A stretch of 52,031 nucleotides of DNA from Roseburia sp. (GTDB lineage Bacteria > Bacillota > Clostridia > Lachnospirales > Lachnospiraceae): positions 1 to 52,031 of the forward strand of contig JAFYVJ010000024.1 of NCBI GenBank assembly GCA_017549185.1. The letters run 5' to 3'. Shown piece after piece: positions 46,508 through 51,998 of this stretch (the stretch's first letter is position 1; every line of letters starts with the position of its first letter). A program made the position numbers and the translations under genes. The notes below the pieces were generated by a model. The model was not told the DNA's origin, searched no databases, and saw only the letters and a list, made by a program, of their open reading frames with translations.

Positions 46508-46948
46508 ATGTTAAAGGGGATTCCAAAAATTCTTTCACCTGAATTATTAAAAGTATTGGCAGAGATGGGACATAGTGACAGACTTGTTATTTCTGATGGA
46601 AATTTTCCGGCAGAATCAATGGGTAAAAATGCAATTGTAATCAGAATGGATGGACATGGGGTACCAGAAATTTTAGATGCAATTTTACAGGTGTTCCCAT
46701 TGGATACATATGTTGAAAAACCAGTAAATCTTATGGAAGTAATGGCTGGTGATACAGTAGAAACACCAATTTGGGATACATACAAAGAAATTATTGCAAA
46801 ACACGATGCAAGAGGTGCAGAAACAGTTGGTAATATTGAACGTTTCCGTTTCTATGATGAAGCAAAAACAGCATATTGTATTATCGCAACAGGTGAATCA
46901 GCATTATATGCAAATGTAATGTTACAGAAGGGTGTTGTAGTAGACTAG
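46508..46948 (+). CDS. fucU: RbsD/FucU family protein, L-fucose mutarotase
   Basis: FucU interconverts the alpha and beta forms of L-fucose, giving the isomerase its preferred anomer. The 146-residue length matches. The N-terminus MLKGIPKILSPELLKVLAEMG and the motif GHSDRLVISDGNFP contain the conserved His and Asp of the family; the C-terminal part has ERFRFYDEAKTAYCIIATGE with the conserved Tyr and the ALYAN end. TTAGGAGG precedes ATG 46508. It lies between the transporter and kinase genes. Confidence 0.94.
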   Translation: MLKGIPKILSPELLKVLAEMGHSDRLVISDGNFPAESMGKNAIVIRMDGHGVPEILDAILQVFPLDTYVEKPVNLMEVMAGDTVETPIWDTYKEIIAKHDARGAETVGNIERFRFYDEAKTAYCIIATGESALYANVMLQKGVVVD

Positions 46949-46972
46949 TTTTTGCGTAGTTGGAGGAATGAT

Positions 46973-47413
46973 ATGTTAGAACAGGTAGTGACGATATTTG
47001 ACGGTTTAACTAAAAAGGTTAAAAAGTTAAAAAAAGCTTCTTATGAAGAAAATATGAAAGCTTTTAGAAAAGAGCATGGTCATTATATAGATGAAATGTT
47101 GCAGCATGTGGAAGGAAAAGAAGATAAGAAAGCGGCGGCACGAGAAGTGTCTCTTGATTTGATAAATCAGATAAAAGAACATTTTTCTGTAAGAGGTAAA
47201 ATCCGGGGTGTTGTACAAATGGATTTGAATTTGTTTATGATTTATTATGTTTTTCCATCCATCCTTTTAACATATCATGATGATGCGAAGTTGTTGGCAG
47301 ATACACTTTGTGAAGTGTGGAACGAGCAATTTCCGAAAGAAAAAATTGGATATACAGATTATAATACATTGTATAAATCTTTCAATGAAAAGATTCTAGG
47401 TATTTTCGGATAG
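46973..47413 (+). CDS. Unrecognised 146-residue protein in the fucose operon
   Basis: ATG 46973 has GGAGGAATG upstream; an earlier in-frame TTG at 46952 does not. The product is soluble and charged, with a Lys-rich N-terminal helix (TKKVKKLKKAS), then KEHGHYIDEMLQHVEG, a central hydrophobic stretch (MDLNLFMIYYVFPSILL) and an aromatic C-terminal part (YTDYNTLYKSFNEKIL). No signal peptide or catalytic motif stands out. It begins 24 bases after fucU and ends nine bases before the kinase gene, so it is certainly co-expressed with fucose catabolism. I know no function for it. Confidence 0.85.
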   Translation: MLEQVVTIFDGLTKKVKKLKKASYEENMKAFRKEHGHYIDEMLQHVEGKEDKKAAAREVSLDLINQIKEHFSVRGKIRGVVQMDLNLFMIYYVFPSILLTYHDDAKLLADTLCEVWNEQFPKEKIGYTDYNTLYKSFNEKILGIFG

Positions 47414-47422
47414 GAGTAGCAT

Positions 47423-48820
47423 ATGGGTAAATATTTTTTAGCAATTGATATTGGTGCTTCCAGCGGTAGACATATTTTGGGTAGTCTCGAAAATGGGAAA
47501 ATTACATTAGAAGAAGTTCATCGTTTTTGGAATGGCATGGATAATGTAGATGGTACACTTTGCTGGGATGTAGAACGACTTTTTAATGAAGTTGTTGCAG
47601 GTATGAAAAAGTGTAAAGAAATCGGTAAGATTCCAGAAAGCGTAGGTATCGACACTTGGGGCGTAGACTATGTGCTTTTAGATAAAGAAGATAAAATTGT
47701 AGGAAAAACAGTTGGTTACCGTGATCATAGAACAGAGGGTATGGATGAAGAAGTGTATAAGATTATTTCGGAAGATGATCTTTATGCTCGTACCGGTATT
47801 CAGAAAGCTATTTACAATACAATTTATCAGTTGATGGCAGTAAAGAAGCAGTATCCGGAACATATGGAAAATGCGGCAAGTATGTTAATGATTCCGGACT
47901 ATTTGCATTACAGATTAAGTGGGAAAAAGGTTCAGGAATACTCCGAGGCAACAACAAGTCAGTTAATTAATCCAAATACAAAGGATTGGGATTATGAATT
48001 GATTGAAATGTTAGGCTTTAATAAAGAAATGTTCCAAAAAATTTATATGCCAGGAACAGATATTGGTGGCTTAACGGAAGAAGTAAAAGAATTGGTAGGA
48101 TATGATTGTAGAGTAGTGCTTCCGCCAACTCATGATACAGCATCAGCTGTTATGGCGATTCCGACTAATGAGGAAGATACTTGTTATATCAGTTCGGGAA
48201 CATGGTCATTGATGGGTGTGGAGAGAGAAGATGCTGACTGCTCACCAAAGAGCAAAGAGGCTAACTTTACAAATGAAGGCGGATATGGTGGAAAGATTAC
48301 ATATCTTGCAAATATTATGGGCCTTTGGATGATTCAGTCTGTTCGTAATCAGTTAGCACCAGAGATGTCATATGGTGAATTGTGTGATTTGGCATCTCGT
48401 GAAACGATTGCCACAGTTGTTGATTGTCAGGATGCAAGTTTCCTTTCTCCTGATGACATGGTTGAAGCGGTAAAAGAATACTGTAGAAAAACAGAACAGG
48501 AAGTGCCAGAGACACTTCCGGCATTGGCTAGTGTTATTTATAATTCATTGGCAAAATGTTATGCAGAAAAATTAGAAGAGATTCAGAAAATAACTGGTAA
48601 GAAATATGAGAGAATCAATGTTATCGGTGGCGGTTCCAATGCGGTATATTTAAACGAGTTAACAGCAAAATATACGGGTGTTGCAGTTCATGCGGGTCCG
48701 GGTGAAGCTACTGCAATTGGTAATATTTTGACACAGATGATAGGATGTGGCGAGTTCAAAGATTTAAAAGAAGCAAGAACTTGTGTAGCAGATTCTTTTG
48801 AAATTCGTATATATGAATAA
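47423..48820 (+). CDS. FGGY-family sugar kinase, rhamnulokinase type, probable L-fuculokinase
   Basis: This 465-residue cytosolic kinase should phosphorylate L-fuculose to fuculose-1-phosphate. It shows the FGGY fold: N-terminal phosphate motif AIDIGASSGRHI, SVGIDTWGVDYVLLD, GYRDHRTEGM, the catalytic Asp region PPTHDTASAV, and the C-terminal adenosine motif VIGGGSNAVYLN. These features are closest to RhaB (rhamnulokinase) rather than FucK. With fucI and fucU in the operon, use on fuculose is the simplest reading, though dual use on rhamnulose is possible. TAGGAG precedes ATG 47423. It is the last gene of the operon. Confidence 0.92.
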   Translation: MGKYFLAIDIGASSGRHILGSLENGKITLEEVHRFWNGMDNVDGTLCWDVERLFNEVVAGMKKCKEIGKIPESVGIDTWGVDYVLLDKEDKIVGKTVGYRDHRTEGMDEEVYKIISEDDLYARTGIQKAIYNTIYQLMAVKKQYPEHMENAASMLMIPDYLHYRLSGKKVQEYSEATTSQLINPNTKDWDYELIEMLGFNKEMFQKIYMPGTDIGGLTEEVKELVGYDCRVVLPPTHDTASAVMAIPTNEEDTCYISSGTWSLMGVEREDADCSPKSKEANFTNEGGYGGKITYLANIMGLWMIQSVRNQLAPEMSYGELCDLASRETIATVVDCQDASFLSPDDMVEAVKEYCRKTEQEVPETLPALASVIYNSLAKCYAEKLEEIQKITGKKYERINVIGGGSNAVYLNELTAKYTGVAVHAGPGEATAIGNILTQMIGCGEFKDLKEARTCVADSFEIRIYE

Positions 48821-48828
48821 TTGTAACA

Positions 48829-48969
48829 ATTCAGAGCCAAGGCAATTTTCGTAAAAAGCAGTTGTTCTGCTTGCTGAAACAAATGCTTTTTCGAAAATTT
48901 CTTTGGCGAGAAGCCAACATGAGCAAAAGGAAAGCTTTGAAGAAGCGATTTTGCGAAGGGGCTCTGAAT
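48829..48969. repeat. Short interspersed element, family 2, copy 2 (MITE-like)
   Basis: Perfect 10-bp terminal inverted repeats ATTCAGAGCC (48829-48838) and GGCTCTGAAT (48960-48969), partly extendable outward, bound a 141-bp element with no coding capacity. Inside are inner inverted segments (AATTTTCG / CGAAAATT) and blocks shared with 25628-25770. Confidence 0.8.
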
Positions 48970-49016
48970 GGTTATGAATATTTAAATAAATAGTAAGCAG
49001 GAAGGCATCGATATAA

Positions 49017-49811
49017 ATGAGCGATCGCAAAACGAAAACAATATGTTTTACAAATAACAAAGGCGGAAGTGGTAAATCTACTTCTTGTGCAAATTTGGGA
49101 TATGAATTAGCAAAAGCAGGAAAAAAAGTGCTTTTGATAGATGGCGATATGCAGTTGAATCTTTCTCTTTCGTTTTTTGATGAGGAAAAGGTTTTAGAAA
49201 TGGCAGAGTGTGAAGCGAATCTTTATTATGCAATACGTGCAAAAAAAGATTTGTTGGACTATGTTGTGTCTACACCATATGAAAATTTGGATTTGATACC
49301 ATCCTCTACGCTTATGAGTCAAATCGAGTATGAGTTGTTTACTATGATTCAGAGGGAGTATGTACTTAAAAAGTGTCTCAAATCGATATATGAATCAGAG
49401 AAATATGACTATGTACTTATCGATGCACCGCCTACATTAGGGACTTGGGTGATAAATATTCTTTGTACTGCTGATTATGTTATTGTTCCAGTAGAAGCAT
49501 CTCCATGGGGATTGTTTGGTCTTGCGAATATGTTTGATTTCCTAAATGGCATGGAAGAGATGACGGAAGCTCAGATTATGGGTGTTTTGATCACAAAAGT
49601 GGACGAAAGAAAGAATTACTATAAGCAGACGAGAGAGATTCTAGATGCGTATGAAGATATTTATGTCTTTGATACATTTATTCATGTAGATTCTTCGATA
49701 GAATGGGCACAAGATAACTCTGTTCCGGTTGCGGTTTATAAGAAGAGCACAAGAAGTACAAAAGAGTACTGTGAACTTGCGAAGGAGGTAATGAATTATG
49801 GCAGTAGGTAA
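49017..49811 (+). CDS. ParA/MinD-type ATPase
   Basis: This 264-residue protein has the deviant Walker A motif KGGSGKST (about residues 15-22) with its signature lysine, Walker A' LLIDGDMQLNLS, Walker B VLIDAPPTLG, and no membrane-targeting helix at the end. ParA ATPases bind DNA as ATP dimers and move or space plasmids, chromosomes, or protein assemblies along the nucleoid. AGGAAGG precedes ATG 49017. Its last 14 bases overlap the start of a small gene, showing tight coupling. No ParB-like gene or parS-like cluster is nearby. Its place between the fucose operon and BMC genes suggests positioning of microcompartments (inference). Chromosome or other cargo cannot be excluded. Confidence 0.93.
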   Translation: MSDRKTKTICFTNNKGGSGKSTSCANLGYELAKAGKKVLLIDGDMQLNLSLSFFDEEKVLEMAECEANLYYAIRAKKDLLDYVVSTPYENLDLIPSSTLMSQIEYELFTMIQREYVLKKCLKSIYESEKYDYVLIDAPPTLGTWVINILCTADYVIVPVEASPWGLFGLANMFDFLNGMEEMTEAQIMGVLITKVDERKNYYKQTREILDAYEDIYVFDTFIHVDSSIEWAQDNSVPVAVYKKSTRSTKEYCELAKEVMNYGSR

Positions 49812-50037
49812 GGGTAGTATGGCAAGAGCCTCAAAAGCCGTAAAAAAAGCAGCTGAACCAGTTGAAGAAGTGAAACAGGTGGTTGTTGAAGAAGTACCAG
49901 AAATAAAAGAAGAAAAGAAGCCGACTGTAAAAAAACGTGCAGTAAAGAAAAATGAAAAGGCTGAAGATATTCAAAAAGATGAGACTTTAAATGAAATGAT
50001 AGCTATTGGCGAGGAAATGCCAGTTTATTATTTATAA
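49798..50037 (+). CDS. Small Lys/Glu/Val-rich partner of the ParA protein
   Basis: This 79-residue protein starts inside the parA-like gene (14-base overlap), with AAGGAGG upstream of ATG 49798. It has a basic, Ser/Ala-containing start (MAVGKGSMARASKAVKKAA), a long stretch alternating Glu, Val and Lys that should be disordered or weakly helical, and a short uncharged end (EEMPVYYL). The basic first residues resemble the N-terminal ParA-stimulating segment of known partner proteins. It matches no family I can name. In size, composition and gene order it resembles McdB-like adaptors. A terminator follows at once. Confidence 0.8.
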   Translation: MAVGKGSMARASKAVKKAAEPVEEVKQVVVEEVPEIKEEKKPTVKKRAVKKNEKAEDIQKDETLNEMIAIGEEMPVYYL

Positions 50038-50048
50038 TTTAGAGGTTG

Positions 50049-50096
50049 AAAAGGCGATACGTACCAAAGCTATGCTGTAGGTGCGTATCGCCTTTT
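50049..50096 (+). terminator. Terminator after the ParA gene pair
   Basis: AAAAGGCGATACG (50049-50061) pairs perfectly with CGTATCGCCTTTT (50084-50096), with inner TACC/GGTG partial pairing. Confidence 0.9.
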
Positions 50097-50102
50097 GAAT
50101 TC

Positions 50103-50195: not shown

Positions 50196-50906
50196 TTATA
50201 ACTGGTTTAAAAAATCTTCGCGATAGTTAAGAATAAGATGTTCTGGGAAATCAGTAGTTTTTAAAAGTGGCAATATATATTGGACATTGCCAATCTGTGA
50301 TTTTCCATGGCTATCGCTTGAGAGAAGAACCGGAAGTTCAAGTTTTTTACAAATAGTAAGAATTTTGAGGCTATTTTCGTAACCATTTGTACGATATGCA
50401 TCAGGGGCAAGGGAGGCATTATTGATTTCAGGAAAAATATATTTGCATTTTGCGACTTCTAAAACATGCTCATAATCAATCGGATAACGCCCATCGTCCA
50501 TGTGGCCGATAAAACGGACATTTTTATGGGACATGGCGTTGATGTAGCCGAGTGTATTATCTTCAAGTGACATTGGTTTGCACGTCGGCAGATGGAAACT
50601 GATGATGGCATAGTCTAGTTCGGATAAAAGATCTGGTGATAAATCCACATTTCCATATTTGTCTAGAATATTTAATTCAACACCGTATAGCAAGCGTACA
50701 TCAAAACGACTACGACAGGCAAGAGAGAGGTTTCTAAAATAGGAAACAGTGGCAGAACAAGGGGTAGCAGGTCCATGTTCGGAAATGCCAAGGGCCTTTA
50801 AACCAATGGAAGAAGCGACTTTTACCATATCGGTAATAGTGTCGTTAGAACCATGTCCACTGCTGATGCTGTGTGTATGTAAATCGAATAAAATAGTTGA
50901 TTTCAT
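50196..50906 (-). CDS. PHP-domain phosphoesterase (YcdX-like)
   Basis: This 236-residue cytosolic protein belongs to the PHP metal-dependent phosphoesterases. Metal-binding motifs are visible in order: DLHTHSISSGHG near the start, ISEHGP, GVELNI, FHLP, GHMDDGRYP and SSDSHGK. The length fits the YcdX/histidinol-phosphatase-like branch with no extra domains. GGAAGG precedes the start on the minus strand. It is transcribed against its neighbours and divides the ParA pair from the BMC genes. Its substrate is unknown; a link to the BMC is not evident. Confidence 0.92.
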   Translation of the reverse strand: MKSTILFDLHTHSISSGHGSNDTITDMVKVASSIGLKALGISEHGPATPCSATVSYFRNLSLACRSRFDVRLLYGVELNILDKYGNVDLSPDLLSELDYAIISFHLPTCKPMSLEDNTLGYINAMSHKNVRFIGHMDDGRYPIDYEHVLEVAKCKYIFPEINNASLAPDAYRTNGYENSLKILTICKKLELPVLLSSDSHGKSQIGNVQYILPLLKTTDFPEHLILNYREDFLNQL

Positions 50907-51175: not shown

Positions 51176-51529
51176 ATGGAAAATAAGCAGCGAATTATTC
51201 AGGAGTTAGTTCCTGGCAGACAGATAACTTTAGCGCACATTATTGCCAATCCTGACCCGGTGTTGTATGAGAAACTAGGGTTGAATCCAGTGGTGGCATA
51301 TTCAAAGTCTGCGATAGGTGTTCTGACGGTAAGTCCGGCAGAGACTGCTATAATAATGGCAGATATCGCAATTAAATCCGCAGGTGTGGAACTTGGGTTT
51401 GTGGACCGTTTTTCCGGTTCGGTTATTATTACTGGAACGGTATCTGAGGTTGAAGCATCTGTGCAGGCGATTTTGGATTACACTGAGAGGACATTAGGAT
51501 ACGCTGTTTCGCCAATTACACGGACATAA
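51176..51529 (+). CDS. BMC shell protein, EutS/PduU type
   Basis: This 117-residue protein is a circularly permuted BMC-domain hexamer subunit of a microcompartment shell. Signs are KQRIIQELVPGRQITLAHII at the start (the beta-strand region that forms the barrel of EutS/PduU), then AIGVLTVSPAETAIIMADIA, SAGVELGFVDRFSGSVIITG, and the C-terminal helix. ATG 51176 follows GTGAGGT; the longer in-frame extension upstream overlaps the promoter and is not used. EutS and PduU cannot be told apart by eye. Given the fucose genes, a propanediol-type compartment is more likely than ethanolamine. Confidence 0.92.
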   Translation: MENKQRIIQELVPGRQITLAHIIANPDPVLYEKLGLNPVVAYSKSAIGVLTVSPAETAIIMADIAIKSAGVELGFVDRFSGSVIITGTVSEVEASVQAILDYTERTLGYAVSPITRT

Positions 51530-51533
51530 TACA

Positions 51534-51998
51534 ATGAAGAAGATTATATTAATTGGTCGTAGTGAAGCTGGGAAGACAACTCTGACGCAGGCACTAAAAG
51601 GCGAGACGATTACATATAAAAAGACACAGTATATCAATTACTTTGATGTGATTATTGATACACCGGGAGAGTATCTTCAGACTGCGAGACTAGGAAGTGC
51701 ATTAGCCTTATATTCCTATGAGGCGGATGTGGTAGGATTGTTGGCATCGTCCACAGAACCGTATTCTTTATACCCGCCTAATATTACCTGTATGGTAAAT
51801 CGGGATGTGATTGGAATTGTGACAAAGATTGATGATGAAAAGGGTAATGTGAAGCAGGCTGCAAAATGGTTAGAACTAGCAGGATGTAAAACGATTTTTT
51901 ACGTGAATTCCAAAACCGGTGAAGGTGTGGCAGACATACTTGAGTATTTACGGGAACCGGGAGATGTAATGCCTTGGGAAAAAGAGGCACCTAATTAA
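51534..51998 (+). CDS. EutP/PduV-type GTPase-like protein
   Basis: This 154-residue protein has a P-loop GRSEAGKTT (residues 8-16), a G3-like DTPGEYL, and G4-like TKIDD, so it belongs to the small GTPase-like EutP/PduV family found in microcompartment operons. In PduV a role in compartment movement or association has been proposed; EutP has been linked to acetate kinase activity. It starts four bases after the shell gene stop, with no clear ribosome site of its own, so translation is likely coupled. The operon evidently continues past the window end. Confidence 0.92.
   Translation: MKKIILIGRSEAGKTTLTQALKGETITYKKTQYINYFDVIIDTPGEYLQTARLGSALALYSYEADVVGLLASSTEPYSLYPPNITCMVNRDVIGIVTKIDDEKGNVKQAAKWLELAGCKTIFYVNSKTGEGVADILEYLREPGDVMPWEKEAPN

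Follow-up and report, generated by a model that had tools for sequence, protein, structure and literature searches.

What would a ParA-type ATPase and a small charged protein do between deoxysugar genes and a bacterial microcompartment (BMC) locus? The question is raised by the DNA analysed here (the window), a Roseburia contig of 52,031 bases (G000:C18) from a genome bin that is 70% complete. The initial annotation had described an ATPase gene overlapping that of a 79-residue protein by 14 bases, with BMC genes some 1.1 kb further on, and both points hold: the two ORFs are present and share 14 nt when the sequence is read directly, and EutS and EutP genes follow at that distance (Table 1). 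The placement of the pair between fucose import/catabolism and the first shell genes also stood, with the correction that a PHP-domain gene, absent from that annotation, intervenes. As had been noted, no ParB was found among the named neighbour genes in the window.

Table 1. Features of the window around the ATPase-partner pair.
Feature	Coordinates	Strand	Basis
FucU-type mutarotase	46508..46948	+	Pfam/NCBIfam
Uncharacterised 153-aa ORF between FucU and kinase	46952-47413	+	ORF list
FGGY kinase (NCBIfam rhamnulokinase; rhamnulokinase/fuculokinase)	47423..48820	+	Pfam/NCBIfam
ParA/MinD-family ATPase gene, McdA-like, 264 aa, ATG start	49017..49811	+	ORF, Pfam, alignment, fold
Partner gene, McdB-like, 79 aa, ATG start	49798..50037	+	ORF, alignment, structure model
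Inverted repeat directly 3' of partner, 20-nt arms, 90% complementary, probable terminator	50046..50099	+	Repeat search
PHP-domain protein gene, divergent, between pair and EutS	50196..50906	-	Pfam/NCBIfam
EutS/PduU-like BMC shell protein, opens GRM5-type locus, ATG 51176	51176..51529	+	Pfam/NCBIfam
EutP/PduV-like GTPase	51534..51998	+	Pfam/NCBIfam

Sugar ABC transporter genes, identified by Pfam/NCBIfam, lie upstream of FucU, the kinase and the pair, and the kinase belongs to the deoxysugar pathway, the presumed supplier of substrate to the compartment. The ORF between FucU and the kinase, scanned as a 148-aa form from 46967, matched nothing in Pfam or NCBIfam. Because the contig stops at 52031, EutS and EutP are the sole BMC-locus genes in the window, which holds only these two of the GRM5 gene set (glycyl radical dehydratase, aldolase, PduS/PduT, DeoR and shell genes). 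In R. inulinivorans (L034/L051) the gene order is as in the window and is followed by the remaining GRM5 set. Contig G000:C23 was ruled out as the continuation of the window, since the overlap at the EutS/EutP end reached only 75% DNA identity over 595 nt. On that contig the bin has a further GRM5-type locus (L043, G000:C23:15364-24154), which at 75% DNA identity to the window represents another copy, or another strain or species in the MAG. On contig G000:C4 (L044:4122-5476) a tandem pair of EutS-like shell genes precedes a gene resembling EutP, and the three may form a satellite locus.

A long imperfect inverted repeat at 48810-48988, with 29-nt arms at 79%, bridges the gap between the kinase and ParA. 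No Rfam family matched the window at gathering score, and the promoter scan returned 8 sites against a shuffle mean of 9.7, so no promoter is claimed for the pair. A PHP-domain phosphoesterase recurs by GRM5 loci or by the pair, and also at the GRM5 loci of Blautia genomes in which the pair lies elsewhere; it is possibly an unrecognised ancillary gene.

The ATPase matches Pfam AAA_31 at 2.3e-52. Among the best 25 of its 32 NCBIfam matches no cut-off was reached, and MinD, BcsQ and the other named subfamilies were rejected as its identity on these cut-offs. It carries a deviant Walker A motif, NNKGGSGKST (K15, K20), together with D44; K15 and K20 of NNKGGSGK and D44 are invariant among 22 aligned clade members. 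The same alignment, comprising the window's ATPase and 21 sequences from the 80 named loci described below, was used for a structure model, in which the predicted fold is that of Soj/McdA. Both the sequence and the fold of the ATPase lie closer to Soj than to the solved McdA. Its best solved relatives are Soj/ParA structures (8ray, 6iub, 2bek), and structure comparison also placed the BcsQ and nitrogenase Fe protein families among the related ATPases.

Kinship to solved Soj/ParA would suit an ordinary chromosome or plasmid partition ATPase with an unusual small ParB-like partner. Such a role is highly improbable, being contradicted by the tree, by low identities and by absence from the BMC-less genomes of the family draw. 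In a tree of 117 ParAs, from which three more rows were left out and for which the program flags long branches that meet, a single 100/100 branch splits the clade of the window's ATPase from 19 Soj-type rows. Within the genus, clade members of at least 62% identity were found in 7 of 62 genomes including the window's, and some match at E <= 1e-30 in 46 of 62, the non-clade matches being only 29-36% identical; three more ParA-like matches in the window's own genome reach 27-31%. Identity to mobile elements is likewise low: at best 41.5% over the 5000 records that the search of the plasmid collection covered, 35.7% in the phage collection, and 24% for the one relative on viral contigs. The partner, for its part, gave no Pfam or NCBIfam hit at E <= 0.01 and hence is no recognised ParB; unlike Soj/ParA, the pair joins an ATPase of a separate clade to a protein of no known family.

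Profile searches gave the clade clear edges. In the family draw every match at E <= 1e-60 scored 2.3e-97 or better; in the order draw the clade extended down to 1.8e-126, followed by a gap to 4e-53 and 6e-51, and in the class draw it extended to 2e-123, followed by 8e-55. By sequence, the ATPase belongs to a clade that has sharp limits and is separate from Soj.

The distribution of this clade follows that of microcompartments. In the family draw (299 genomes from 298 genera, the clade and BMC lists being compared by eye) the clade occurred in 34 genomes, all of them among the 92 that are BMC-positive and none among the 207 that are BMC-negative (one-sided Fisher 2.5e-20, with kinship handled only by drawing roughly one genome from each genus). 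In the genus, the BMC domain PF00936 was present in 11 of 62 genomes and all 7 clade genomes were among those 11 (one-sided Fisher 6.7e-7, with kinship unaccounted for). The pair recurs in many genera and is therefore not a chance arrangement.

Beyond the family, the order draw (other Lachnospirales) placed the clade in 10 of 246 genomes; all 8 given to the BMC search were positive, and the remaining two, G000 and G324, were BMC-positive in the family draw. In the class draw the clade occurred in 3 of 391 genomes, both further clade genomes being BMC-positive, and in the phylum draw of 244 genomes it was found in the window's genome only. Thus the BMC search was positive for every clade genome submitted, across the genus, family, order, class and unlinked sets. 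Among Soj-type controls, taken from the best non-clade ParA matches of the class draw, 10 of 28 genomes were BMC-positive. Two weak non-clade ParA matches in the order draw had a ParB-like neighbour, judged by eye, and their genomes were BMC-negative; no ParB-like gene was seen beside clade members in the loci whose ORFs were read.

The association is closest with one compartment type. A strong match to the GRM5-type BMC-T profile (E <= 1e-70; other genomes 1e-33 to 1e-56) was found in 59 of the 299 family genomes, and 32 of the 34 clade genomes fall in these 59, with 2 in the other 33 BMC-positive genomes (one-sided Fisher among BMC genomes 1.5e-6, kinship again handled only by sampling about one genome per genus). 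Those two are G103, an assembly of 270 contigs with one BMC match, and G141, whose pair and eut operon are divergent. The clade is absent from 27 of the 59 GRM5-positive genomes, some assemblies being incomplete, so that GRM5 compartments can probably do without the pair.

Gene neighbourhoods were read in a scan of named genomes, in which the best 80 of at least 382 relatives were examined with flanks of up to 10 kb per locus, some ending at contig ends. BMC or EutP genes adjoin the pair in 22 of these 80 named loci, in two layouts. In the first (15/80) ParA and partner are followed by the EutS/EutP/aldolase or shell operon, with a PHP gene between them in 12, and the pair lies mostly 3' of FucU/kinase genes. 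In the second (7/80, and five of the seven genus loci) the pair ends the shell operon at its 3' side, in the order shell operon, BMC-T, DeoR, ParA, partner. A further 11 of the 80 carry sugar-pathway or PHP markers in a fetched flank free of BMC genes, and 47 have neither kind of marker, a few of these with PduP, RnfC or a glycyl radical enzyme. In five of six neighbourhoods listed (two Blautia, Robinsoniella, Galacturonibacter and Massilioclostridium) the pair sits amid unrelated genes; the sixth is L108, with the glycyl radical enzyme setting described below.

The FucU/kinase neighbours of the first layout, and the 11 loci with sugar or PHP markers alone, would agree with a pair that serves fucose/rhamnose uptake or catabolism, for example through polar localisation of a transporter, and whose link to BMCs is indirect. 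This explanation is unlikely in view of the second layout and of pairs in other settings. In two members (L108:6678-11099 and L118, with L198/L207) the pair lies directly 3' of glycyl radical enzyme and activase genes, and the fetched BMC locus lacks the aldolase. At L240:9275-18583, in G141, the operon from which the pair diverges comprises eutA/eutB/eutC/eutL-like genes with EutS and EutP, named by eye.

Where the pair lies apart from BMC genes, a compartment locus is found elsewhere in the genome. When 50 of the 58 unlinked loci were submitted to the BMC search, all 50 genomes were positive, and of 48 such genomes for which BMC regions were fetched (G403 and G408 are outside this set) 47 had a GRM5-like locus, that is, at least two of a fuculose-type aldolase, a GRM5-type BMC-T and DeoR in a single locus. 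The exception is G369, for which just one of the BMC regions was fetched. G394 and G404 lack the aldolase at its usual position, and in several others the fetched stretch stops before its site. Physical linkage to the BMC locus is unnecessary for co-occurrence. The suggestion of the initial annotation that the pair would accompany BMC loci rather than partition genes was borne out by the 34 of 34 clade genomes of the family draw, and two findings that would have spoken against it did not appear: the same pair in many BMC-less genomes (0 of 207, with all 50 unlinked-pair genomes BMC-positive), or a pair always beside plasmid or partition genes (22 of 80 named loci adjoin BMC genes).

The partner is recognisable mainly by its two ends. 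In the window it consists of a head, MAVGKGSMARASKA, a middle rich in Lys, Glu, Val and Ala, and the tail EEMPVYYL; a search of its profile against solved structures gave no meaningful match. A partner follows ParA in 77 of the 80 named loci; the search pattern recognised 76 of these partners, and L087 was accepted by eye. The 14-nt overlap is identical to the window's in 52 of the 76 pattern-positive loci, and the partner is 57-224 aa long in the 74 of these with a complete C-terminus. No partner adjoins ParA at L101, L113, L127 or L247, nor was one found elsewhere in the fetched stretch. The head consensus is M-x-[VI]-G-[KR]-x-S-[IM]-x-R-A, with Arg in 76 of 76; the G and S were built into the search pattern, so that only this Arg, the tail Pro and the residue at -3 are independent observations. 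The pattern missed L087 and variant heads outside Lachnospiraceae (MSISKKS...): several members from other Lachnospirales families have such heads (MSISKKS..R) with the tail P-x-[YH]-LL.

The tail follows P-x-Y-[LYF]-[LFMY], with Pro at -5 in all 74 complete C-termini. The residue at -3 is Tyr in 64, His in 5, Trp in 3 and Phe in 2, and is usually followed by Leu-Leu, Tyr-Phe or similar. An aromatic residue occurs within the last five positions of 69 of the 74 partners, the other 5 having His at -3. Four of the 74 partners have a Trp among their last 15 residues; as the C-terminal Trp of carboxysome McdB is absent from most partners, they are not classed as carboxysome McdB. The middle is unconserved, with a mean column identity of 37% among 7 genus partners. 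K, A, E, T, S, P and V make up a median 73% of the whole partner (n = 74), the median GRAVY is -0.58 (74 partners), and the first 20 residues have a median net charge of +3. A structure model of the window's partner, built from 23 sequences (its own and 22 of the 76 pattern-positive partners), predicted a single helix at 5-18 with the rest at low confidence (mean pLDDT 62.8). By alignment, composition and model, the basic head, disordered-looking middle and distinct tail first remarked in the window's protein are conserved across partners.

Loci that lack the ATPase suggest what the two ends do. Of the GRM5 loci without a clade ParA, 29 were read, 27 taken from the family draw and 2 from the genus, and contig ends truncate several of them; two carry an orphan partner. 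One, L042:13810-14145 (G061, 83% complete), comes directly after BMC-T and DeoR and ends in EDLPVHLL; the other, L280:17699-18004 (G140, 99% complete), is upstream of the aldolase and ends in DDMPIYYL. Both lack the VG-x-x-S-x-x-R head. These two cases were found via the tail pattern and are supported by operon position and low-complexity make-up. Orphans of alpha-carboxysome McdB in the cso operon have also been described as lacking the charged N-terminus, in the available part of PMC8262871. As the orphans have no ATPase, keep the tail and lose the head, their sequences suggest that the tail is the compartment contact and the head the ATPase contact.

This arrangement resembles that of alpha-McdAB, which acts on carboxysomes in Halothiobacillus neapolitanus and likewise comprises, in the portions of PMC12204374, PMC11321042 and PMC8262871 consulted, a ParA-type ATPase with a small, low-complexity and mostly unstructured partner encoded just downstream. 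The likeness extends, by those published descriptions, to an N-terminal helix of about 20 residues with a key basic residue and to a C-terminal aromatic residue, which is cargo-binding in alpha-McdAB, as well as to the headless orphans. According to a preprint (PMC12204374, seen in part), the first 20 residues of H. neapolitanus McdB are necessary and sufficient for McdA binding, one Lys being critical; its C-terminal Trp mediates carboxysome association and can largely be substituted by Tyr (PMC11321042, in excerpt). The present partners differ from alpha-McdB, in which the Trp is invariant, in having Tyr (64/74), His, Trp or Phe at -3, and the cargo would differ too, GRM5 metabolosomes being the probable one here.

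From this likeness and the co-occurrence, the pair is probably an McdAB-like positioning and partition system dedicated to fucose/rhamnose (GRM5-type) metabolosomes. Given the two-ended architecture shared with H. neapolitanus McdB and the mostly Tyr tail, positioning by a Brownian ratchet is inferred. By analogy with McdAB, the ATP-bound dimer of the ATPase would attach non-specifically to the nucleoid, and the C-terminal tail, P-x-Y-[LYF]-[LFMY], would anchor the partner to the metabolosome shell. The N-terminal helix of the partner, with the invariant Arg, would touch the ATPase dimer, and this contact would trigger ATP hydrolysis and local release. Compartments would in this way spread along the nucleoid and be shared between daughters. 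In the available part of a study of Salmonella, Pdu BMC positioning was unaltered by added McdAB or by loss of ParA or MinD (PMC12866334); taken with the 27 of 59 GRM5-type genomes without the pair, this indicates that such active positioning is optional for metabolosomes. The further proposal, that the tail is a portable shell-address peptide acting in trans on several BMC types (GRM5, aldolase-less glycyl-radical and EUT) and that orphan tail-only adaptors act without the ATPase, is judged to have about an even chance of being correct.

BcsQ and nitrogenase Fe protein have roles other than positioning. With such relatives, and with comparative data that link the pair to BMCs and to no particular act, a pair dedicated to BMCs could serve the assembly, loading, turnover or size control of metabolosomes instead. 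That is considerably less probable than positioning, because McdAB, a BMC system whose function is known, has an adaptor built likewise of head, disordered-looking middle and aromatic tail (PMC12204374, PMC11321042, both in part), and because it is the head alone that the two orphans lack.

The preferred reading of the pair as a positioning system has precedents in part. Putative McdAB-like pairs near PDU, GRM and EUT operons have already been reported (available text of PMC8262871 and PMC13052382), and those of the Vecchiarelli group, near PDU and GRM operons, similarly include McdB-like proteins whose last five residues contain Tyr or Phe (PMC11321042, in part). Unlike the present account, these descriptions, in the parts available, name no Lachnospiraceae GRM5, N-terminal motif, unlinked pairs or co-occurrence counts. 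ParA is included among ancillary genes of BMC loci generally, and the GRM5 ancillary list is without it, in the excerpt of PMC4207490; no mention of a ParA protein was found in the accessible portions of the C. phytofermentans paper, the GRM review and the BMC catalog (PMC3557285, PMC6325248, PMC8217296). PduV/EutP GTPase and PduK are also BMC-locus proteins that have been tied to positioning (PMC8262871, PMC13052382, in part) but, unlike the ATPase of the pair, are not ParA-type; as a EutP gene is present here as well, EutP and the pair could both act. Among the literature matches listed, none described experiments on a pair of this kind in a metabolosome. McdAB-like pairs by metabolosome loci had been predicted before, and the present one adds a sharp clade, sequence motifs and strong BMC co-occurrence; co-occurrence despite non-linkage was not found in print in the portions of the literature available.

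Whether McdAB-like action extends beyond carboxysomes is described as an open question in the available text of PMC8262871 and PMC13052382. The pair provides defined candidates in the gut bacteria Roseburia inulinivorans, Blautia species and Robinsoniella, and within the family draw its presence in 32 of the 59 genomes of GRM5 type constitutes a natural plus/minus series. In the two orphans the tail, predicted to bind the compartment, occurs without the head that is predicted to bind the ATPase; if the tail suffices for targeting, it would be a small tag for shell engineering. Should the portable-tail reading be true, this would be the first proven McdAB-like active positioning of a catabolic microcompartment.
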